Shown: positions 1,504-15,974 of the stretch, one piece after another | Numbering within the stretch: the first letter of the stretch is position 1 | How the letters are laid out: every line of letters begins with the position of its first letter | Origin: Nitrospira sp. | GTDB lineage: Bacteria; Nitrospirota; Nitrospiria; Nitrospirales; Nitrospiraceae | Reading direction: 5' to 3' | DNA: 38,324 bases | NCBI GenBank assembly: GCA_016788885.1 | Contig: JAEURX010000015.1 | Location: 1 to 38,324, forward strand | Made by a program: the position numbers and the translations under genes | The notes under the pieces: model-generated | Database searches by the model: none | What the model saw: the letters and a program-made list of their open reading frames with translations, nothing else | What the model was told of the DNA's origin: nothing

Positions 1504-1535
1504 GTGCGCATATGCACGGCTGTGCATAGATGCAC
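1504..1535. promoter_or_regulatory. Twin GTGC-N6-GCAC palindromes, putative enhancer for the DAB operon
   Basis: Two 14-bp palindromes, GTGCGCATATGCAC (1504-1517) and GTGCATAGATGCAC (1522-1535), have centres 18 bp apart. The second is perfect in its GTGCAT/ATGCAC arms. They lie about 125-155 bp upstream of the start expected from the sigma-54-like promoter at 1633-1648. That is a normal distance for an NtrC-type activator. The rest of 1401-1692 contains no convincing gene. Confidence 0.5.
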
Positions 1536-1632
1536 GTTGTCCGCGACCGGAGACGATCTTCTTCCTCTGCAGGGACCTAACTGATTCGCTCATTTCTTGG
1601 ATTTCACAGGGTTTCGTTCTTGTTGTCGCGTT

Positions 1633-1648
1633 AGGCCCTGTTCTTGCT
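1633..1648 (+). promoter_or_regulatory. Sigma-54-like promoter of dabBA
   Basis: AGGCCCTGTTCTTGCT fits the -24/-12 pattern TGGCACG-N4-TTGCW, with both invariant dinucleotides (GG at 1634, GC at 1646) correctly spaced by 10 bp and an intact TTGCT. It has three mismatches in the -24 half. Transcription would start near 1659, some 34 bp before dabB. The sigma-54 activator gene at 9296 and the palindromes at 1504-1535 support the call. Confidence 0.5.
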
Positions 1649-1692: not shown

Positions 1693-3360
1693 ATGGAAGC
1701 AATTTTTCCACTCGTGACGATCTTTGCGCCCCTGCTGGGCACATTGCTCATCGGCCTGTTTTGGCGGGAGCTTGGTGAGCGCAGTGCACGCCTCGGCGTC
1801 GGAGCGCTCTGGTGCTCGGCGCTGACGTCGTTGGTAACCCTGGCGGTGGTGCTGTATGGAGACCCGATCCGCTTAACCATCCTGGGTGCGTCCTCGGGAG
1901 CCCTGGCCTATACGATTCTCATCGATCGCCTGGCCGGGGTCATGATGGTGTTGATCAGCCTGGTCAGTCTCATCATCCATGTGTATTCCGAGCGATACAT
2001 GGTAGGCGACGCAGGCTACATCCGCTTCTTTGTATTTCTGGGTGGTCTCACCTCCGTGTTGCTGAGCCTGGTCAGCAGCGGCAATCTGTTGTGGATGTTC
2101 GTCTGCTGGCATTTGGTGACGTGGCTGCTCGCGTCGTTGCTCGTCTGCAACCCGGCGAGTCGTCCGGCCAGGGAAGCCGGCCAGATGACCTTTTGGGTTC
2201 AGGGGCTCGGGGATTTCGCCTTTCTCTTGGCGCTGTTGGCCCTGTATGGCGCGACCGGCACGCTGGATCTGACCGAACTCTTTGCTCGCCTGCAGGCCAA
2301 TCCTGCGACGTTGACCCTCTGGCCGGGCATGCAGACGGATCTGGACGTGGCCCTGGTCGCGACCCTGTTACTCCTGTTGTCGGTGATGACGAAATCGGCG
2401 CAGTTTCCCTTTCACCTGTGGCTGATCGGCACGATCGAGGCCCCGACGCCGGTTTCGGCCTTGATGCATGCGGGTATCGTGAACGCCGGCGGCTTTCTCG
2501 TCAATCGCCTTGCTCCGCTGTTCGGATTGGCTCCCACGACGCTGCATCTGATGTTTGTGATCGGGTGCGTGACAGCCTTGATCGGCGCCACCGCGATGCT
2601 GACGCAAACCAGCGTGAAGCGCAGGCTCGTGTACTCGACCATGGGACAGATGGGATATATGGTCATGGAGTGCGGGCTGGGTGCATTTGCCCTGGCGGTG
2701 TTCCATCTCTGTGCGCACGGCCTCTTCAAGGCTACCCTGTTCCTCAATTCCGGCTCGGTCATCCACAAGGCGCGGACGGAATTCAAATTACCCCCGGCCG
2801 CCCAGGTGGATGAGGCCCATAGTTTTTCACCCATGACGTGGACGACCGGTGTGGTTGCGACGTTGGTGTTGCCGTTGGTGATCCTGCTCGTTGCGCATGG
2901 CGTCGTCAGCATTCCCTTGCAGGATGCGCAGGGGGCGGTGATTTTTCTCTTCTTCGGGTGGGTCACGACGTCGCAAGCGATGTTCACGCTGTACCGACTC
3001 CACACCGGGGCCTCCTGGACTGTCTCGTTGACCATGCTTGGGGCATTGACGGTCATCGGCCTCACCTACCTCTGGGCAGGCGAGGCATTTACCCATTTTT
3101 TGTATCCGGCCCATGATGCTGCGGCGAGTTTCATGCGCGCGGCCGAATGGAATCGTACGTTATTTGACGCGGTGGTGGGGTTAGCGGTGATGTTCATCCT
3201 GGCTGCGTGGGGCATGATTTACGGCAAGGCCAAAGGCGTCAAGTTGCTGATGCCGGCCTGGATGGATCAGTTGCGTGCACGGGCCTATGTCATGTTCTTG
3301 AATGGCCTCTATGTTGAAGATTTGGTTCGCGTGATCGGTCGAGCTGCGTTCCGCCGGTAA
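1693..3360 (+). CDS. dabB: DabB, membrane subunit of DAB inorganic-carbon transporter (NuoL/MrpA-like)
   Basis: This is a 555-residue polytopic membrane protein of the proton-antiporter family that includes NuoL. The proton-antiporter core is visible in KSAQFPFHLWLIGTIEAPTPV and the following segment with SALMHAGIVNAGGFL, and the chain is strongly hydrophobic throughout. It is followed 34 bp later by the DUF2309 gene, which is the diagnostic DAB arrangement. In characterised systems DabB couples cation flow to CO2 hydration by DabA, accumulating bicarbonate. It is not part of a complete complex I operon here, which argues against a respiratory NuoL. The ATG at 1693 follows a GGAG at about 1679. 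Confidence 0.9.
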   Translation: MEAIFPLVTIFAPLLGTLLIGLFWRELGERSARLGVGALWCSALTSLVTLAVVLYGDPIRLTILGASSGALAYTILIDRLAGVMMVLISLVSLIIHVYSERYMVGDAGYIRFFVFLGGLTSVLLSLVSSGNLLWMFVCWHLVTWLLASLLVCNPASRPAREAGQMTFWVQGLGDFAFLLALLALYGATGTLDLTELFARLQANPATLTLWPGMQTDLDVALVATLLLLLSVMTKSAQFPFHLWLIGTIEAPTPVSALMHAGIVNAGGFLVNRLAPLFGLAPTTLHLMFVIGCVTALIGATAMLTQTSVKRRLVYSTMGQMGYMVMECGLGAFALAVFHLCAHGLFKATLFLNSGSVIHKARTEFKLPPAAQVDEAHSFSPMTWTTGVVATLVLPLVILLVAHGVVSIPLQDAQGAVIFLFFGWVTTSQAMFTLYRLHTGASWTVSLTMLGALTVIGLTYLWAGEAFTHFLYPAHDAAASFMRAAEWNRTLFDAVVGLAVMFILAAWGMIYGKAKGVKLLMPAWMDQLRARAYVMFLNGLYVEDLVRVIGRAAFRR

Positions 3361-3394: not shown

Positions 3395-6300
3395 ATGGCA
3401 CTTGAACGACGCACTTTCACCGATGCAGAGCGGATGGAATTGCGGTCTCACGTGGAACTGGCGGGAGAGGCCATCGCCTCCTACTGGCCCATGCGCACGT
3501 TCATCCACCACAACCCGTTGCATGGCCTGGAGGAGCTGCCGTTCGATCAGGCGGTGAAGCGGGGCGAACAACTGCTCGGGGGCAAAGGCTATCTGCCGGG
3601 TGCGCTTTATCGCCGGTATGTGGCGGAGGGCCGTATCCGTCCGGAAGATCTGACCCACGTGCTGACACCGCTTGCCGGAGACCGGCAGGTGACGTTTGCC
3701 GGTCGCCAATTGTCCCACCTGGAGTTGTTGCGGTTGTCCATGATGCATGGGCTCGGCGATCCGTCCCTCGAGGCACAGGCCACGGATGGGGCAACGGATC
3801 AGATTGTGGCCTGGCTTGCCTCTTTGGCCGATGAGGCCAAGACCATCCAGACGGAATCGCTCCTTCCCTGGGAACCGCTCGATCTGTGCTCACAGGAGAC
3901 CCTGTCGGGCTGGTGCGATCGCACCTTGGGCACGTCGATCGTGTCGGACATCAACGAGCAGATGGTGAAATGGTGTGGAGTGTTTCTGGACGAGGGCGAA
4001 GCCTCATGGGTCATGCCCGAGCGGCAGCACACGTTTTATCGCTCCTGGAAACGACTGGCCCGGTACGATGCCGGGTTACGACTGCTGGGAGTGATGGATG
4101 TCGCGCAAAAAATCGACGCGATGGATGATCGTCCCGAAGAAGCGGTGCTCCATAGTCTGGCGGCGATGGGCATTCCCAAGCCGGCGTGGGAATCGTATTT
4201 CGCCTTACATCTGTCCGCCCTTCCCGGATGGACCGGGTACATCAAGTGGCGTTCTGAGGAACCGCATTACCCCTGGCAGACACGGTATCCCATCGATCTC
4301 GTGAAGTATCTGGCGGTACGCTTGTTCTACGAACGTGAGTTCGTCGATCTGCGCTGCCGGCAGCGGTTGGGTCTCGCGGGACAGTTTGACGCTGTCCGTG
4401 GCTACATCGAGCAGGCTCCTTACGGCCATTGGTTGAGGCGGCAGATGGTGGGCGGAAGGCTGGCGGCAGCGGTCGCCTCCGACGTGCAGGTCTGGACTCG
4501 ACAGCACCCGCACGCCAGTCAGGAGGAATGGAATCGCTTCGGGCGGCAGGTATATGAGCAGAGCGCCGGCCTGCGTGGTGCCGACATCCTGAAGCGGGAT
4601 GCGCGACGCTTGTCGGCGCTGGCTGTCGCCCTGGGCGTCGATCAGAACTTGGTGCCTCAGACCTCTCCTGCGGATGTGTTCACCGTGCTGAATTGGCTGG
4701 ATGGATTTCCGGTCGGACAACAGAGCCAACGGTGGCTGGAGGCGTTTGAAACGCGACAGCGTCTGGATGTGGTGGGACAATTGAGCGGAATCGCCAGGCA
4801 GTTGCGCGACAGCGATGGTCGCCCCGCGACTGGTGCGCCTGCGCGTCCGCTCGCCCAACTGGTGTTTTGCATCGACGTCCGCTCTGAAGTATTCCGCCGA
4901 CACCTTGAACAACTCGGCGGCTATGAAACATTGGGCGTCGCCGGATTTTTCGGTATCCCTGTGAAGTATCAGGCCTTCGGCGAAGAGCTTCCGGTGACGC
5001 ATGCGCCCGTGCTCTTGAAGCCCAAGAATCATATCCGCGAAATCCCGCGCAGCTACCATGGCACGGCGGCAAGTCGGCATCGGCTATTTGCCAAACTCAG
5101 CCACGCAGGCCATCATCTGCTCCACGATCTCAAAGAAAATGTCATTACGCCGTATGTGATGGTGGAGGCCCTGGGCTGGTTTTTCAGCGTGCCGTTCTTT
5201 GGGAAAACACTCTTCCCGCTCTGGTATCACCGCGTCACGACGTGGTTGAAGGGACTGTGGTTGCCGCCGTTGGCGACGACCCTCACGATCGATCGGTTGA
5301 GCCGCGAAGAGGCGCAGGAAATGGTGGCGGTGGAACAGCGCGCCGCCATTCGCGCCGCGCTGCGGCAGGAGTTTCCAGAGCTGGGGTCCGCGATCACGCC
5401 CGCGTTGATCGATAACATCAGGCTCGGCGCCATAGAGAATCAGGACGACCAGGGCAAGCGAGAGGTCGCGGAGAGTCTGGGAACCACGGCTGCCCAAGTC
5501 GAAGCTTTGTATGAGCGATTCCGTCGTGACTACACGCTGACGCCGCGAGGCATGTCCTCCCGTCTCCAACGCATCACTCACCATGGATTTTCGGTCTCCG
5601 AGCAGGCCTATGGTGTGGAAGCAGCGCTTCGACTGATGGGATTCACCTCGGGGTTTGCGCGCCTGGTGGTCATGTGTTCCCACGGCAGCACCTCGGACAA
5701 CAATCCGTATGAATCGGCGTTGGACTGCGGCGCGTGCGGAGGGAACAGCGGTTTGCCCAACGCGCGCGCCTTTGCCTCGATGGCAAACAATCCAGCGGTT
5801 CGTAAGGTCTTGGAGTCGCGCGGTCTCAAGATTCCAGGGGATACACACTTTGTGGCCGCGCAGCACGACACGACCAGGAACGATGTCCGCATCGTCGATT
5901 TAGAGGATGTCCCTGCGACACATCGGAAGGACCTGGTGCGGTTGTTGGACGATCTTCGAGAGGCGGGTGAGCAGGCGGCGCACGAACGGGGCTTGGCATT
6001 GGAGGGGACGGTTGCCTCGTCGAAGCGCAAGGACTCACTGATCAGGGCAAGCCGGAGAAGTGTGGACTGGGCCCAGGTGCGTCCGGAGTGGGGGCTGTCG
6101 AAAAATAATTTGCTCATCATCGGGCGGCGAGACCTCACGCGACCCTTGAATCTCCAAGGGCGGTCATTCCTCCATTCCTACGATTACCGACAGGATGACT
6201 CGGGGAAACTCCTGGAAGCCATCATGACGGCGCCGCTCATCGTGGCCCAGTGGATCAACATGGAGCACTATTTCTCGACCGTCGACAACGAAGTCTACGG

Positions 6301-6739
6301 CAGTGGGAGCAAGGTCTATCACAATATCGTCGGGCGGGTAGGGGTGATGAGTGGAGCAAGCAGTGACCTTCGGCTCGGGCTTCCTGCTCAGACTGTGCTG
6401 GACGGGCCGCGTCCCTATCACGAACCGATGCGGCTCCTCGCGGTGATCGAGGCTCCAAGGGAGCGGGTGGAAGCGGTGATTGCCACCCATCCCAGTCTCG
6501 AGCGGCTGTTCCATAACGAGTGGGTCTCGCTGGTGGTGTGCGAGCCGAACGAAGCCACCTTTTATCATTATGACATCATGCAGGGCTGGCAACCGGTGGC
6601 GGTAGAGCCGGACCAACGGACGGTGCGTTCAGATAATGTCAATGGACAGGTGAAGGTCGAAGCACATCCTGGCGGCGAGGCCTGCGAGGTCGTGGAGTCT
6701 GTGCCTGTGGAGCGGGATTCGACGACGACGCGTCCGTAG
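3395..6739 (+). CDS. dabA: DabA, DUF2309 carbonic-anhydrase-like subunit of DAB transporter
   Basis: This 1114-residue DUF2309 protein has a beta-carbonic-anhydrase-like zinc site with the family spacing: C492 and D494 in LVFCIDVRSE, H763 in MCSHGS and C778 in LDCGACGG. The H-to-C spacing of 15 residues equals that of the characterised Halothiobacillus DabA, whereas the C492-H763 interval is longer. The protein is clearly larger than the roughly 800-residue type member. It should hydrate CO2 to bicarbonate at the cytoplasmic face, energised by DabB. The start ATG at 3395 is in the only long frame, although its ribosome site is weak (GGAGTACAGGC). Confidence 0.92.
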   Translation: MALERRTFTDAERMELRSHVELAGEAIASYWPMRTFIHHNPLHGLEELPFDQAVKRGEQLLGGKGYLPGALYRRYVAEGRIRPEDLTHVLTPLAGDRQVTFAGRQLSHLELLRLSMMHGLGDPSLEAQATDGATDQIVAWLASLADEAKTIQTESLLPWEPLDLCSQETLSGWCDRTLGTSIVSDINEQMVKWCGVFLDEGEASWVMPERQHTFYRSWKRLARYDAGLRLLGVMDVAQKIDAMDDRPEEAVLHSLAAMGIPKPAWESYFALHLSALPGWTGYIKWRSEEPHYPWQTRYPIDLVKYLAVRLFYEREFVDLRCRQRLGLAGQFDAVRGYIEQAPYGHWLRRQMVGGRLAAAVASDVQVWTRQHPHASQEEWNRFGRQVYEQSAGLRGADILKRDARRLSALAVALGVDQNLVPQTSPADVFTVLNWLDGFPVGQQSQRWLEAFETRQRLDVVGQLSGIARQLRDSDGRPATGAPARPLAQLVFCIDVRSEVFRRHLEQLGGYETLGVAGFFGIPVKYQAFGEELPVTHAPVLLKPKNHIREIPRSYHGTAASRHRLFAKLSHAGHHLLHDLKENVITPYVMVEALGWFFSVPFFGKTLFPLWYHRVTTWLKGLWLPPLATTLTIDRLSREEAQEMVAVEQRAAIRAALRQEFPELGSAITPALIDNIRLGAIENQDDQGKREVAESLGTTAAQVEALYERFRRDYTLTPRGMSSRLQRITHHGFSVSEQAYGVEAALRLMGFTSGFARLVVMCSHGSTSDNNPYESALDCGACGGNSGLPNARAFASMANNPAVRKVLESRGLKIPGDTHFVAAQHDTTRNDVRIVDLEDVPATHRKDLVRLLDDLREAGEQAAHERGLALEGTVASSKRKDSLIRASRRSVDWAQVRPEWGLSKNNLLIIGRRDLTRPLNLQGRSFLHSYDYRQDDSGKLLEAIMTAPLIVAQWINMEHYFSTVDNEVYGSGSKVYHNIVGRVGVMSGASSDLRLGLPAQTVLDGPRPYHEPMRLLAVIEAPRERVEAVIATHPSLERLFHNEWVSLVVCEPNEATFYHYDIMQGWQPVAVEPDQRTVRSDNVNGQVKVEAHPGGEACEVVESVPVERDSTTTRP

Positions 6740-6812: not shown

Positions 6813-7136
6813 ATGTTGACGCTGCATCCGATGAAAGAGATTCGAATTGTCATCGAAGGGGAACACCTGAAAATCGTGACCAGTCTACTCGACCGGGTGG
6901 GCGCGACCGGGTACACGATCATCAACAACGTATCGGGCAAGGGGCATCACGGGTTTCATGAAGGGCACTTGCTGTTCGACGACACCAGCAGCCAGGTGAT
7001 CGTCTTTACCGTGGTGCCGGAGGAGCGTATCGAGCCGATTCTGGCGGGGCTCGGGCCGGTGTTCCACAAACATTCGGGTGCGATGTTTGTCAGCGACGTC
7101 TCCGTGACCCGCCGGGATCATTTCGTCGTTCGATAG
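6813..7136 (+). CDS. PII-like regulatory protein of the DAB operon
   Basis: This 107-residue protein has a ferredoxin-like fold pattern typical of the PII superfamily: KEIRIVIEGEHLKIVTSLLDRVGATGYTI, a glycine/histidine-rich loop (VSGKGHHGFHEG) in the T-loop place, then IVFTVVPEERIEPILAGLGPVF. The classical T-loop tyrosine region of GlnB is not visible. PII-like genes next to DAB genes are known and are thought to sense adenine nucleotides or bicarbonate to tune uptake. The ligand here is unknown. The ATG at 6813 follows a strong GGAGGAAGGGGGCGGAG. It lies 73 bp after dabA and is probably co-transcribed. Confidence 0.75.
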   Translation: MLTLHPMKEIRIVIEGEHLKIVTSLLDRVGATGYTIINNVSGKGHHGFHEGHLLFDDTSSQVIVFTVVPEERIEPILAGLGPVFHKHSGAMFVSDVSVTRRDHFVVR

Positions 7137-7234: not shown

Positions 7235-9241
7235 ATGAGCACGACGTTGATGGCTTCTTCCCACCGCAGCCGCTCCAAAACCTCCAGACCTGTCACGTCC
7301 GAGATCGCTGCCGCTGAAGTGTTGGCGTGGCTCAGCGATTGTATCCACGGCGGGCTCTGCTTCGTCTGCAAGGGCCTTCTCATTTTCGAAAATTCTCAAT
7401 TTGCAGAGCTGGTCGAGAGCGTCGTCTCCGGCGGGGCGGCACAGGAGCCTACGCTGCGGAAGCGGCTGTTGGACGACGCCATCGCGTGGAACGAACGAGA
7501 TCTGGGCGCGCGCAAGAGCGTGGAGTATCACCTGGCTGCCCCAGACGGACGGTCCCTGCATTACGACTGCCGTTTCAATGTCGTGCCTTATCGAGGTGAG
7601 CGCGGCGTGCTCATGGTGTTGGAGGATGTTACGGAGCGGGTGCGGCTCGCCCAGGATGCCGCGCAGGTGGCGCGATTTCAATCGGTGTTGGCGCGCATCG
7701 GGACGCTCGGCGTGAGCGGCGTATCTGCCCAGGTGCTGATGAATGAGGCCGTGAAGGAAACGGCCACTGCCCTGGAGGTGGAGCTCTGCAAAATCCTCAT
7801 CCCACGAGAACCGGACGGCCATCTCTACATCATGGCGGGAAGCGGTCTGCGGGATGAACTCATCGGAAAATTGACCATCGAAGGCGGGACCCACTCGCAG
7901 GCCGGGTACGCGATTCGGGAACGCATGCCGGTGGTGGTAGAGGATCTTCGCAGGGAAACGCGGTTTTCCGCGTCCAAATTGTTGACTGAGCATGGCGCGG
8001 TCGCCGGCATGTGTGTGCCGATGCTGGTCGAAGACCGGGTCTATGGGGTCATGACCGCCCATTCCAAGCGCGTACGCCGGTTCACCCAGCAGGAGCAGGA
8101 ATTCCTCTCGACGATGGCGAACACGGTCGGTACGGTGTTGGAGCGCCGGCGGCATGAAGAGACGCAGATGGATTTTTATCATCGCCTGTTCCTGTCCGCG
8201 CAGGACGGCGTGATGATGACGGATACGACCGGAACCATCGTCGACTGGAATCCGGCCATGGAGCGCATGACCGGATGGACGCGCGAAGAGGCCTTGGGGC
8301 AGCGTCCGGTGATTCTGAAGTCGGGGAAACATGCGCCGGAATTTTATGAGCGGCTGTGGCAATCGATCCGGGCCGGGCATCCATTTGTGGAACGGTTCGT
8401 CAATCGTCGTAAAGACGGCTCGGAGTTTCTGGTCTGGGAAAGTGTCAGCCCGGTCAAGGCCTCCGATGGCACCACGCAATACTTCATGGCGATTCTGACC
8501 GACCTCAGTGAGCGTGAACAAATGCTGGAAGCCCTGCGCCATACCGAACAAGTCAAACTCGTCGGACAATTGGCCGGTGGGATCTTGCATGAGGTGCGGA
8601 ATCCCCTCATCGGCCTGGGGAGCCTGGCCACGCACCTGGCCGAACAAACCACCCTGCCGCAGGACGCCCGTGACCGTTGCCGGTTGATCGCCAGGGAGGC
8701 GGCGCGGATCGACGAACTCCTCGAATCGCACCTCAGCCAGTTACGGCCAAGGCCCTTCGACATTGCCGCCTGCGACCTGGCCTCGGTGCTGGAGGATACC
8801 TGCACGCTGCTTCGTCCGAATCTGGTAAAGAATCAGATCGTGGTCAGGACCGCGGTCTCTTCCGACCTCCCTGCGGTTGAGGCTTCGAGGGCTCACATCC
8901 TGCAGGTTTGCCTCAATATTGTGATGAATGCCATCGATGCGATGCCGGGCGGCGGCCAGGTCCATGCGACGCTCACTCCGGAGGTCCGGCGCGCTCCCGG
9001 CGTGTTGATGCGTCTCGCCGATGGAGGGAAGGGCATCGCGCCTGAGGATTTGCAGCGCATCTACGAGCCGTTTTTCACGAATGGGAAGGCGAAGGGCGTG
9101 GGCCTCGGGTTGACCATCACTCGGGACATCGTGGAACGCCATCACGGGCAGCTCGTGATTGAAAGTCCGCCGGGGCAAGGAGCCGTGGTTTCTGTGTGGC
9201 TTCCGGTCAGGCACGACGCGTCGAGAGGAATCGAGCGATGA
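7235..9241 (+). CDS. Soluble PAS-GAF-PAS sensor histidine kinase (NtrB/AtoS-like)
   Basis: This 668-residue protein has no transmembrane segment, so it probably senses a cytoplasmic signal. Domains in order: a divergent PAS-like region (about 20-125, ending LEDVTERVRLAQ), GAF (about 150-305), PAS (about 315-425, MTDTTGTIVDWNPAMERMTG), HisKA with phospho-acceptor H452 in GGILHEVRNPL, and HATPase with N box (N565 in MNAIDAMPGG), G1 ADGGKGI and G2 GVGLGLTI. The H box is of the NtrB type that partners sigma-54 activators. The partner gene follows 54 bp later. No strong ribosome site is seen before the ATG at 7235. Confidence 0.88.
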   Translation: MSTTLMASSHRSRSKTSRPVTSEIAAAEVLAWLSDCIHGGLCFVCKGLLIFENSQFAELVESVVSGGAAQEPTLRKRLLDDAIAWNERDLGARKSVEYHLAAPDGRSLHYDCRFNVVPYRGERGVLMVLEDVTERVRLAQDAAQVARFQSVLARIGTLGVSGVSAQVLMNEAVKETATALEVELCKILIPREPDGHLYIMAGSGLRDELIGKLTIEGGTHSQAGYAIRERMPVVVEDLRRETRFSASKLLTEHGAVAGMCVPMLVEDRVYGVMTAHSKRVRRFTQQEQEFLSTMANTVGTVLERRRHEETQMDFYHRLFLSAQDGVMMTDTTGTIVDWNPAMERMTGWTREEALGQRPVILKSGKHAPEFYERLWQSIRAGHPFVERFVNRRKDGSEFLVWESVSPVKASDGTTQYFMAILTDLSEREQMLEALRHTEQVKLVGQLAGGILHEVRNPLIGLGSLATHLAEQTTLPQDARDRCRLIAREAARIDELLESHLSQLRPRPFDIAACDLASVLEDTCTLLRPNLVKNQIVVRTAVSSDLPAVEASRAHILQVCLNIVMNAIDAMPGGGQVHATLTPEVRRAPGVLMRLADGGKGIAPEDLQRIYEPFFTNGKAKGVGLGLTITRDIVERHHGQLVIESPPGQGAVVSVWLPVRHDASRGIER

Positions 9242-10766: not shown

Positions 10767-10806
10767 GTGCCGGCGCACGCGCGCACAACTGCCCGTGCGC
10801 GCGCAC
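10767..10806. promoter_or_regulatory. GTGC/GCAC palindrome cluster, putative enhancer for 10995
   Basis: Two perfect 12-bp palindromes, GTGCCGGCGCAC (10767-10778) and GTGCGCGCGCAC (10795-10806), have centres 28 bp apart. They lie 135-175 bp upstream of the start expected from the sigma-54-like promoter at 10915. A 9-bp stem (10778-10786 with 10795-10803) can also form, so a weak terminator of the preceding gene is an alternative. No U-run follows. Confidence 0.4.
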
Positions 10807-10914
10807 ACGTCATTGCTACCCTCGTGGTCCGTGTATCCCGCACTAGGCTCTCCGCAGCGCCGCATTTTCTGTGGAAAGTGTCTTTCCTCAGTCGACCCCG
10901 GTGAACCATGAAGC

Positions 10915-10930
10915 TGGACCGGCCTTTGCA
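10915..10930 (+). promoter_or_regulatory. Sigma-54-like promoter upstream of zinc-ribbon gene
   Basis: TGGACCGGCCTTTGCA matches TGGCACG-N4-TTGCA except for the swapped fourth and fifth bases. GG (10916) and GC (10928) are exactly placed. The predicted start is near 10942, 53 bp before the gene at 10995. It is the best sigma-54-type sequence I found in the window. Confidence 0.6.
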
Positions 10931-10994
10931 CATCCCTGTTCCTGTGAGATGAGTACGTGCAGTCCCACACCACCGGTTACACCACGGAGATGGT

Positions 10995-11192
10995 ATGAAT
11001 TGCTTGCGATGCAACAGTCCGATGTATCAGGAACTCTATGATCACTTTCAGGAAACGCAAGGCCAACAATTTCACGCGATGCACTGTCTGATGTGCGGCG
11101 ATATTGTCGACCCTGTGATCCTCAAGCACCGTCGTGAACGGGTGGAGCCATTGGGAGATCGGGCCAGACTGGCCGTCGTGACCTCGGTCTGA
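10995..11192 (+). CDS. Small zinc-ribbon protein (paralogue of the 12767-12988 gene)
   Basis: This 65-residue protein has two Cys pairs, CLRC near the start (MNCLRCNSPM) and CLMC about 30 residues later (HCLMCGDIVDPVI), as in a structural zinc ribbon. A second protein of the same plan is encoded at 12767-12988 (minus). Both share the pattern MxCxRC, then CxxCGxIVD and a basic RRER/NRAR stretch. The function is unknown. The ATG at 10995 follows GGAG. It sits downstream of a sigma-54-like promoter, so it may belong to the regulon of the NtrC-type protein just upstream. Confidence 0.7.
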   Translation: MNCLRCNSPMYQELYDHFQETQGQQFHAMHCLMCGDIVDPVILKHRRERVEPLGDRARLAVVTSV

Positions 11193-11297: not shown

Positions 11298-11645
11298 ATG
11301 GCGCAGGCTCGTACTCCCGCTGATCTCGAATATGCCGTCATGCTGGCGATTCTGAACTTTCACACGGAGTTCATGAAATCCACTTATTCGCATGTCGACG
11401 TCCAATTGTCTGAGGACATCATCAAGGTGACGTTGACTAGGATTGGAACGGTGCCTGCCGAAGCGCGCTTGGCTCAATCCGAGGAGGGACGGGCGCTGCT
11501 CCGGCAAGTGCACGAGGCCCTGTTCACCTCTTGTCAGGAGGTGCTCATGCAGCGCATTGAACGCGTCGTCGATCGCAAAGTGCGGACGATGGTGACCAGT
11601 CTCGACCCGGTCTCCGGGAGGAGCCATATCGCGATCAATCTCTAA
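11298..11645 (+). CDS. DUF2294-like protein
   Basis: This 115-residue soluble protein has the layout of DUF2294: an N-terminal helix (LEYAVMLAILNFHTEFM), strands with DIIKVTLTRIGTVPAEARLAQSEEGRALL, a helix rich in charged residues (LMQRIERVVDRKVR) and a final strand. The family has no firm biochemical role. ATG 11298 is chosen because AAGGA (11287-11291) precedes it at normal spacing. An upstream in-frame TTG at 11220 would place the hairpin inside the coding region and is less likely. It lies 105 bp after the zinc-ribbon gene and may share its transcript. Confidence 0.6.
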   Translation: MAQARTPADLEYAVMLAILNFHTEFMKSTYSHVDVQLSEDIIKVTLTRIGTVPAEARLAQSEEGRALLRQVHEALFTSCQEVLMQRIERVVDRKVRTMVTSLDPVSGRSHIAINL

Positions 11646-13204: not shown

Positions 13205-14656
13205 ATGGGGACCACAGGGAGGCGGAACGTCGTCAGGCTGGGCGGGACGCTCATGGCCTTTGCGGTGGTGCTCGTCTCAAATGCCATGGTTCATGCCGAG
13301 CGCGCAGGGCAGGAACATCGGTCCGCGGCGGATACTCGCATAGAGAAGACAAAGGAAAAAGGATTTGACGGCGTCGATTTCTCGTACGATCTGTTCGGGG
13401 GACCTCCCGGTCAATCGGCTGCACGATTGGCCGAGCAGACGATGGCCAAGGATACGGCGGAGAAACCGGAGGTCATGGCCAAGCAGACCACGCTCTTAAA
13501 AGACCGTTATCACCTGGAATGCAGAACGAATAGTTCCGCCCGCATGACCAAGGGAAAGTCCCAACCGATCGGACCGACGGTGAGGTTGAAGGAGGGGCTG
13601 AGCTGGGACGCGCTGGCTCGCCTGGATCCGGAAGACATTCGCAAGCAGAAGGCGTTTCCCCAGGGGTTTATGCGATTGCCGCATGTCAAACATGAGGTAG
13701 GGGGGATGGTATTTCCCCAGGAGCAGGTTGAACAATTTCCTCGGTTGGAACGATTTGACGTGGAGTTTGATCTGCCGGCCTGCTTTCGCCCTGAATTTCC
13801 TCCGCCTATTTTTCTGACGACGCATCCCGAATTGGGAGATGTGTCACAAGGCGAGGTGTTGAACGCCGACAATTTCGATCGATTGTTTCGGGGGCTGATC
13901 ACTCCCGTGCAACTGGATGGGCTGAGGATGTTGGTGACGCAGTTTCCGCAGGAAGAGTTCAATGGGACGGCCGATCGCAAATCGGCCAAGCCCAGCCTTG
14001 GCGTGACGTGCTTGGACTGCCATGTAAACTTCCACACAACCGGCCAGTTTCATCTCAATCCCGATACTCGACCGCAACGCGACCGGCTGCGCCTCGACAC
14101 CGTGAGTCTGCGCGGGATGTTCAATCAGCAACTCCATGGCTCTAAACGGAGTTTGCGATCCGTGGAAGATTTCACCGAATTCGAGCAGCGGACGGCCTAT
14201 TTCAACGGCGATCACATTCGTGCCGCCAAGAAAGGGATGAATATCATCGACCGCTTGCAGGTCGCGCATATGGCCCAGATTCAAAACATGATCGATTTTC
14301 CTCCCGCGCCGAAACTCGATCCCATGACGGGGCGCCTGGATCGCACGCGGGCCGACCGGCAGGAAATCGCGGGCGAAGAGCTCTTTTTCGGCAAAGCGCG
14401 TTGCGCGCAATGCCACCAACCGCCGGCCTATACCGACCATATGATGCACGACCTGTTTCTGGAGCGATTTGGAGCGGAGGCCGACGGGCCTATCAAAACG
14501 TTCGTCTTGAGAGGCATCAAGGATTCGCCTCCTTATTTTCATGACGGACGACTGCTCACCTTGGAAGATACGGTCGAGTTTTTTAATGTCATCGGAGGAC
14601 TGAAGCTCACGACGGATGAAAAGGCGGCCTTGGTCGCCTTTCTCCGTGCGTTGTGA
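13205..14656 (+). CDS. Periplasmic MauG/CcpA-like di-heme cytochrome c
   Basis: This 483-residue protein has a signal peptide (RRNVVRLGGTLMAFAVVLVSNAMVHA) and two c-type heme sites, C269-C272-H273 (CLDCH) and C400-C403-H404 (CAQCH), 131 residues apart as in di-heme peroxidases. The C-terminus (LRGIKDSPPYFHDGRLLTLEDTVEFF) is the conserved end of that family. An extra region of about 230 residues precedes the first heme, and I recognise no domain in it. It may act as a peroxidase or oxidase in the periplasm; substrate unknown. ATG 13205 has an AAGGAGG upstream and excludes 27 unlikely residues. It is followed 61 bp later by glgC. Confidence 0.82.
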   Translation: MGTTGRRNVVRLGGTLMAFAVVLVSNAMVHAERAGQEHRSAADTRIEKTKEKGFDGVDFSYDLFGGPPGQSAARLAEQTMAKDTAEKPEVMAKQTTLLKDRYHLECRTNSSARMTKGKSQPIGPTVRLKEGLSWDALARLDPEDIRKQKAFPQGFMRLPHVKHEVGGMVFPQEQVEQFPRLERFDVEFDLPACFRPEFPPPIFLTTHPELGDVSQGEVLNADNFDRLFRGLITPVQLDGLRMLVTQFPQEEFNGTADRKSAKPSLGVTCLDCHVNFHTTGQFHLNPDTRPQRDRLRLDTVSLRGMFNQQLHGSKRSLRSVEDFTEFEQRTAYFNGDHIRAAKKGMNIIDRLQVAHMAQIQNMIDFPPAPKLDPMTGRLDRTRADRQEIAGEELFFGKARCAQCHQPPAYTDHMMHDLFLERFGAEADGPIKTFVLRGIKDSPPYFHDGRLLTLEDTVEFFNVIGGLKLTTDEKAALVAFLRAL

Positions 14657-14717
14657 CGAAGGCGGAATGATCGGCGGAGCTGGTCTGGACAGAAGACAGC
14701 AGCTTCGAGGAGATATC

Positions 14718-15974
14718 ATGGCACACGAATTCACCCATCAACCAAAAGTCTTGGCGCTCATTCTGGCCGGTGGAAAAGGAGAGCGTCTGATGCCGCTCAC
14801 CGAGGTGCGCAGCAAACCGGCCGTACCCTTCGGGGGGACCTATCGCATCATCGACTTCGTGTTGAGCAATTTCTACAACTCCGGCATCACCGCCATCCAT
14901 GTGATGGTCCAATATCGCTCGCAGTCGCTGATCGAACATCTTCGCCGCGCCTGGCGGATCGGGGATGGAGAAAGGCAGTTCGTGACGGTGGTCCCTCCAC
15001 AAATGAACCTCCGCCGCGGTTGGTATGAAGGCACGGCCGACGCCATCTATCAAAATCTCAACCTGATTCAAGATGCCGCCCCCGATGTCGTGGCGGTGTT
15101 CGGGGCTGACCATATTTACCGGATGGATATCCGGCACATGCTCCGATTCCATCTGGAGCGCCAAGCGGATGTGTCGGTGGCCGCACTTCCGGTCCCTCTG
15201 GATTCTGCACAGGGATTCGGCATCATTGAAGTGGATCGCAACGATCGCATCATCGGGTTCCAGGAGAAACCATCGGAGCCGAAGGCGATGCCGATGCGGC
15301 CGGACCGCGCGTTATCATCCATGGGTAATTATCTTTTCACGACGGATGTACTGCTGAGAGCCTTGAGCGAAGATTCCGGCACAGAAGGCACCCATGATTT
15401 CGGGCGTGATATTTTGCCGCGCCTGCTGCATCACGAGCGAGTCATGGCCTACAACTTTCAGGACAACGACATCCCCGGTCTCAACTATTACGAAGAGCCC
15501 GGCTACTGGCGCGATGTGGGAACGATTCCAGCCTACTGGCAAGCCAATATGGATTTGCTGGGTGAAACGCCGCTCAATGATCTCCGAAATCCGGAATGGC
15601 CGATTCGCGGCGAATCGGCGAGGGGGCTCCCGGCAAGCCTGATCAACTGTTATGTGGATCACGCGCTGATCGGCGAGGGCAGTCGCATTGTCGAAGCAGA
15701 CATCAGGCGCTGTGTCATCGGACGCCATGTCAAAATCGAACCGGGCGCGCAAATCGAGGACTCCGTGATCTTGGACCATACGTCCATCGGCGCCAAGGCA
15801 CGGTTGCGTCGCGTCGTGATCGACCGCGGCAATGCCATTCCGGCCGGCTCCGTATTGGGCCATGATGAGGCCGGCGCGGCCCTATCGCCCGCCGTCACCT
15901 CATCCGGGCTGACCGTGTTGCCGAAAGCAGTGCTGCAACAGGATGTATCCAAGCAGCGCCTCTCCTCCACATGA
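14718..15974 (+). CDS. glgC: Glucose-1-phosphate adenylyltransferase
   Basis: GlgC makes ADP-glucose from ATP and glucose-1-phosphate, the committed step of bacterial glycogen synthesis. The 418 residues match the family length. The nucleotidyl-transferase signature LALILAGGKGERLMPLT is near the start, followed by SKPAVPFGGTYRIIDF, FGADHIYRMDIRHML and a C-terminal left-handed beta-helix (IGEGSRIVEADIRRCVIG). ATG 14718 is chosen for the GAGGAGA just upstream; the open frame extends back to 14616 over the cytochrome gene. It lies between the cytochrome and treY genes with short gaps. Confidence 0.95.
   Translation: MAHEFTHQPKVLALILAGGKGERLMPLTEVRSKPAVPFGGTYRIIDFVLSNFYNSGITAIHVMVQYRSQSLIEHLRRAWRIGDGERQFVTVVPPQMNLRRGWYEGTADAIYQNLNLIQDAAPDVVAVFGADHIYRMDIRHMLRFHLERQADVSVAALPVPLDSAQGFGIIEVDRNDRIIGFQEKPSEPKAMPMRPDRALSSMGNYLFTTDVLLRALSEDSGTEGTHDFGRDILPRLLHHERVMAYNFQDNDIPGLNYYEEPGYWRDVGTIPAYWQANMDLLGETPLNDLRNPEWPIRGESARGLPASLINCYVDHALIGEGSRIVEADIRRCVIGRHVKIEPGAQIEDSVILDHTSIGAKARLRRVVIDRGNAIPAGSVLGHDEAGAALSPAVTSSGLTVLPKAVLQQDVSKQRLSST

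Follow-up and report, generated by a model that had tools for sequence, protein, structure and literature searches.

A predicted sigma-54 circuit for inorganic-carbon uptake in Nitrospira and its relatives

The dab operon and its upstream region

The window that we have analysed, a stretch of 38,324 nucleotides from Nitrospira sp. (NCBI GenBank assembly GCA_016788885.1, contig JAEURX010000015.1, positions 1 to 38,324 of the forward strand), carries genes for a predicted inorganic-carbon transporter, a PII-like protein, a histidine kinase and an activator of the NtrC type, with candidate regulatory elements ahead of them:

1504-1517, no strand: dyad 1, GTGCGCATATGCAC, proposed activator site; centre about 148 bp ahead of the predicted start, kept in relatives
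1522-1535, no strand: dyad 2, GTGCATAGATGCAC, proposed activator site at 18-bp spacing from dyad 1; centred about 130 bp ahead of the predicted start
1633-1648, + strand: predicted sigma-54 (-24/-12) promoter, AGGCCCTGTTCTTGCT; GG, TT and TTGCT unchanged in 28 of 28 orthologous promoters
1693-3360, + strand: dabB, NuoL/Mrp-like membrane subunit (PF00361, PF00662)
3395-6739, + strand: dabA (PF10070, 891 bits), its zinc-site segments alignable with those of the DabA2 structure 9rd0
6813-7136, + strand: PII-like protein, nearest solved relatives 5d4n and 5d4l
7235-9241, + strand: GAF/PAS histidine kinase, without a clear membrane segment
9260-10702, + strand: NtrC-type activator, with receiver, AAA+ domain bearing GSFTGA and Fis-type HTH

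The CIDVR and His...Cys segments of the dabA product align with those of DabA2, so that it has the Cys/Asp/Arg/His/Cys residues of the zinc site (Cys351, Asp353, Arg355, His524 and Cys539 in DabA2; PMC13144422), and its gene adjoins a dabB. The pair is predicted to encode a DAB-type inorganic-carbon transporter. The PII-like protein matches 5d4n and 5d4l, which we take to be structures of bicarbonate-binding CPII, with E 8e-31 over residues 2-101, the full-length similarity by which the CPII type is recognised here, and resembles SbtB more weakly. According to Pfam, the activator combines receiver, sigma-54 AAA+ and Fis-type HTH domains, as do enhancer-binding proteins of the NtrC type; it also has a Walker A motif, and its GSFTGA is GAFTGA in several orthologues. 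Its assignment as NtrC proper (NR(I)) was rejected, the score being 392.4 bits against a curated equivalog cut-off of 558.6 (TIGR01818), and it reaches 408 bits against the AtoC cut-off of 714. The genome encodes RpoN, the sigma-54 factor itself (PF04552, E 1.5e-56), as well as numerous further activators of the NtrC type (142 candidates at first look). It also has a second DAB locus (L068; G000:C43:54517-56151), with a DabB 48% identical and a PII-like gene of its own, in which neither a kinase and activator of this kind nor the dyads and sigma-54 site were found. A few genes downstream of the features listed above, at 14616-15974 of the window, lies glgC, for glucose-1-phosphate adenylyltransferase.

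The promoter-like element, AGGCCCTGTTCTTGC at 1633-1647, departs from TGGCAC-N5-TTGC at two places, which counts against the main reading, and its GG (1634-1635) and GC (1646-1647) stand ten bases apart, the proper -24/-12 spacing. From this GC there are 45 bases to the ATG of dabB at 1693, with transcription predicted to start at about 1659. Both dyads are 14 bp long and of the form GTGC-N6-GCAC. Directly upstream are two oppositely oriented IS3-family elements, or transposase remnants of such (23-457 and 460-1319), the nearer gene ending about 185 bp before the dyads, which are intact. The original prediction had described the -24/-12 element 45 bp ahead of dabB, the twin palindromes, and a kinase and NtrC-type activator encoded directly after dabB-dabA-PII, and we find positions, spacing and gene order to be as it stated. 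Within the window alone, however, both motifs are at chance level, with 25 promoter-like matches observed against 40 expected from shuffles and two dyads against 0.95; similarly, the exact sigma-54 consensus has 14 matches in the whole genome and 12 in the reversed control. The case for sigma-54 control consequently rests on comparison with relatives.

Conservation and loss among relatives

We searched for DabB in 101 genomes and took the upstream DNA of its close relatives for the promoter comparison. Across the 28 alignable dabB promoters, the 17-nt core has a pairwise identity of 0.84, whereas the 5' flank reaches 0.33 and the 3' flank 0.50; restricting the comparison to ten divergent promoters gives 0.77 for the core and 0.30 for either flank. 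The twin dyad with zero mismatches and 18-bp spacing occurs once per genome in 18 genomes of the genus, always before dabB. A looser pattern of a single dyad plus promoter gives many matches genus-wide, at about the noise level of the reversed control, dabB being the recurrent signal. The loss of the -24/-12 bases in close relatives had been named as grounds for giving up the idea of sigma-54 control, and a search for the same promoter and palindromes before dabB in other Nitrospira had been proposed as a check; the bases are invariant and both elements recur, which supports sigma-54 dependence of the dabB promoter more strongly than could be done from the window by itself.

The activator has orthologues, with 76-90% identity, in 27 of the 101 relatives, the window's own genome counted, all of them in genomes with this type of DAB, and their terminal helix, NKTLAAKxLGxTRWMLDRRRK, is almost invariant. 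Dyads, promoter and activator go together in nearly all genomes having this DAB type, and the exceptions are informative. Two genomes (G003 and G020) have a different activator at their main dab locus, with 39-40% identity and another helix, and the dabB promoter there has kept the sigma-54 core while losing the perfect dyads; a second locus in the same genomes has an activator orthologue of 79% identity together with the dyads. The main loci of these genomes (L050 and L052) also have no kinase, and the different sigma-54 activator follows the PII gene, an apparent replacement of the regulator. Another genome (G011) retains the DAB and PII-like genes in the absence of the activator and of the sigma-54 site, with a single dyad. 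One case counts against the main reading: G016, a draft genome with the locus cut at a contig end, has the site but yielded no activator.

Further targets and phylogenetic spread

Downstream of the activator gene, a comparable combination of dyads and sigma-54 promoter (10767-10931), overlooked in the original prediction, precedes genes for a zinc-ribbon-like protein and a member of the MpsC family:

10767-10808, no strand: second upstream site, comprising an imperfect dyad, GTGCCGGCGCAC (10767-10778), and a dyad, GTGCGCGCGCACAC (10795-10808); same layout in relatives
10914-10931, + strand: second predicted sigma-54 promoter, CTGGACCGGCCTTTGCAC; like element before the zinc-ribbon gene in 7 of 7 loci counted as independent
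10957-10970, no strand: additional dyad, GTGCAGTCCCACAC, shortly beyond the second predicted start
10995-11192, + strand: zinc-ribbon-like protein of 65 aa with two CxxC motifs; no protein family scoring above cut-off
11298-11645, + strand: MpsC-family protein (PF10057, E 1.1e-12, 48.4 bits against a cut-off of 23)

Dyads at the place of the one at 10957-10970 are present also in L046, L047, L049 and L053, and this further dyad could serve in feedback repression of the zinc-ribbon/mpsC operon.

In a second genome collection, which shares some genomes with the first and provides related rather than independent loci, dyad plus promoter precede 11 of 11 SulP genes, 7 of 7 zinc-ribbon genes, 9 of 9 lone dabA genes and 17 of 20 dabB genes, the three dabB exceptions being 47-49% identical and belonging to the other DAB type. 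Random windows show the combination in 0.9% of cases for the control loci and 2.7% overall; given the kinship of the loci, p-values from this comparison are no more than indicative. By lone dabA we mean a gene neither directly behind dabB nor inside an operon, a definition that leaves out, for instance, L183; this second cluster of N. moscoviensis has two full-length dabA genes in tandem, followed by a PII-like gene, a kinase (58%) and an activator (70%), and no recognisable dabB within the locus, the operon start lying outside it. The same signature is seen before some CysD-like genes (5 of 17) and before 5 of 21 mpsC genes, downstream or unlinked copies counted, an incomplete coverage that counts against the main reading. 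Moreover, a twin dyad with one mismatch in G004 is located about 1.4 Mb from the dabB of that genome and just before a lone dabA. In SulP-type clusters the gene for the activator is immediately followed by one for a conserved protein of some 790 aa (L167:11661-14033, L178:11661-14033, L171 and L175), for which no Pfam match was found.

The spread of the system extends to Leptospirillum-type genomes, a further point that had escaped the first reading of the sequence. Here an activator of 55-62% identity, with a similar helix (LGISRWALDRRLK), still adjoins the dab genes, and all five dabB loci having enough upstream DNA present a GTG-N8-CAC dyad with a TGGCA-N7-TTGC element 66-88 bp further downstream.

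The proposed circuit and its alternatives

How would a shortage of inorganic carbon reach these promoters? The reading that we favour, and regard as highly probable, is that of a dedicated sigma-54 circuit for inorganic-carbon uptake, run by the kinase and activator pair adjoining the dab genes. The promoter, the dyads, the family of the activator, the joint conservation and loss of these elements, and the shared targets (DabBA, lone DabA, SulP, zinc-ribbon/MpsC and some CysD-like genes) are all supported by the sequences compared. Since no membrane segment is clearly recognisable in the kinase, its signal is probably cytosolic; most likely a shortage of inorganic carbon, it would alter phosphorylation by the GAF/PAS kinase. 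The phosphorylated activator would then bind the two dyads, some 130-150 bp ahead of the start, as their co-conservation and the habits of the family suggest, and by DNA looping contact the sigma-54 polymerase at 1633-1648. This polymerase would transcribe dabB-dabA-PII, and also the genes for kinase and activator if they are cotranscribed, which would amount to positive autoregulation. Acting at 10767-10931, the same activator would switch on the genes for the zinc-ribbon-like protein and its MpsC-like neighbour. We infer the low-carbon signal, the phosphorylation, the direct binding and the single transcript, as well as the tight on/off control envisaged in the original prediction.

The most serious alternative is that the circuit answers to sulfur supply, to redox or to some other stress, the carbon transporters being just part of its output. 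SulP proteins are annotated as sulfate permeases, some clusters include genes for CysD-like and Usp proteins, and a few CysD-like genes carry the signature. However, of all the partners it is the DAB genes that recur most constantly, in Nitrospira and Leptospirillum-type genomes alike; no STAS domain was detected in the SulP proteins, which are 452-457 aa long, and in N. marina a role in bicarbonate import has been proposed for BicA-like SulP proteins (PMC8115632); moreover, most CysD-like genes are without the signature. We consequently judge this explanation to be improbable. It is more improbable still that, behind a genuine sigma-54 promoter, some other protein occupies the dyads and the adjoining activator works elsewhere or through other sites. 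The abundance of NtrC-type candidates in the genome leaves room for another binder, and the binding of the dyads by the adjoining activator is itself deduced; yet the dyads track the orthologues of this activator with their near-invariant helix, decay where the local activator is different, and are accompanied in Leptospirillum-type genomes by activators having a similar helix. Least credible of all, to the point of being very hard to sustain, is the idea that the -24/-12 match and the dyads are fortuitous, or that a constitutive sigma-70 promoter drives the operon: this would suit the lack of enrichment over shuffles within the window, but it is contradicted by the invariance in all 28 promoters and by the recurrence before other targets, and a search of 1340-1720 for a sigma-70-like site found none.

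A different question, which concerns the input of the kinase alone and not sigma-54 control, is whether the PII-like protein reports bicarbonate or energy state to the kinase, as GlnB does for NtrB. Its gene directly precedes that of the kinase, and its nearest solved relatives are of the CPII type. On the other hand, a PII-like gene is found behind dabA even at loci that lack this kinase and activator (L067, L068 and L071-L075), whereas Leptospirillum-type loci keep kinase and activator with no detectable PII-like gene. We therefore regard such an input as unlikely, if the least unlikely of the alternatives, and action of the PII-like protein on the transporter rather than on the kinase as more likely, in the manner in which SbtB tunes SbtA; a complex of these two proteins is reported in PMC8352866.

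The circuit that we propose resembles the NtrB/NtrC (with GlnB) and AtoS/AtoC systems in having a soluble PAS-type kinase, an activator of receiver-AAA+-Fis architecture, tandem upstream dyads and a -24/-12 promoter, and shares with nitrogen control the proximity of a PII-family gene. It differs from both in the extra GAF domain, in having inorganic-carbon transporters as targets and in an activator scoring below the NtrC and AtoC cut-offs. The transporter is like DabA2/DabB2 of Halothiobacillus in its DabB and in the aligned zinc-site segments of DabA, and MpsABC of Staphylococcus provides the counterpart of MpsC, which in the window, unlike in the MpsABC and DAB systems, is encoded in another operon, preceded by a sigma-54 promoter of its own. 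While the PII-like protein has affinities with CPII and SbtB, its genetic partner here is DAB. LysR-type regulators such as CbbR and CmpR, of which CbbR in A. ferrooxidans is an example, are likewise DNA-binding activators of carbon-acquisition genes, but differ in protein family, promoter class and DNA site. An earlier hint of sigma-54 near carbon-fixation genes came from Thioalkalivibrio, with a sigma-54 activator close to a RuBisCO/carboxysome operon; the accessible text of that report describes proximity and expression, with no promoter or dyads, and does not concern DAB (PMC5744179). In the openly licensed literature we found no earlier report of sigma-54 control of DAB or of bicarbonate transporters with enhancer-binding proteins, nor of the regulation of inorganic-carbon uptake in Nitrospira. 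Hence, the machinery is that of a standard sigma-54 enhancer system, and it is the target and the phylum-wide spread that appear to be new.

In evolutionary terms, we tentatively suggest, as a possibility that may well prove too broad, a carbon counterpart of nitrogen control for the whole phylum, in which an ancestral kinase and sigma-54 activator of Nitrospirota would sense inorganic-carbon shortage and command transporters of unrelated families, DAB and SulP/BicA-like, as well as MpsC. Nitrospira are major nitrifiers, oxidising nitrite and fixing CO2 by the reverse TCA cycle. The system is present in the sequenced genomes of N. moscoviensis and N. defluvii, so that with promoter, dyad and activator defined the circuit can be tested in these species. 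It would link MpsC and the small protein with the zinc ribbon to inorganic-carbon uptake alongside DAB, and may offer a marker of carbon limitation in nitrifying communities.
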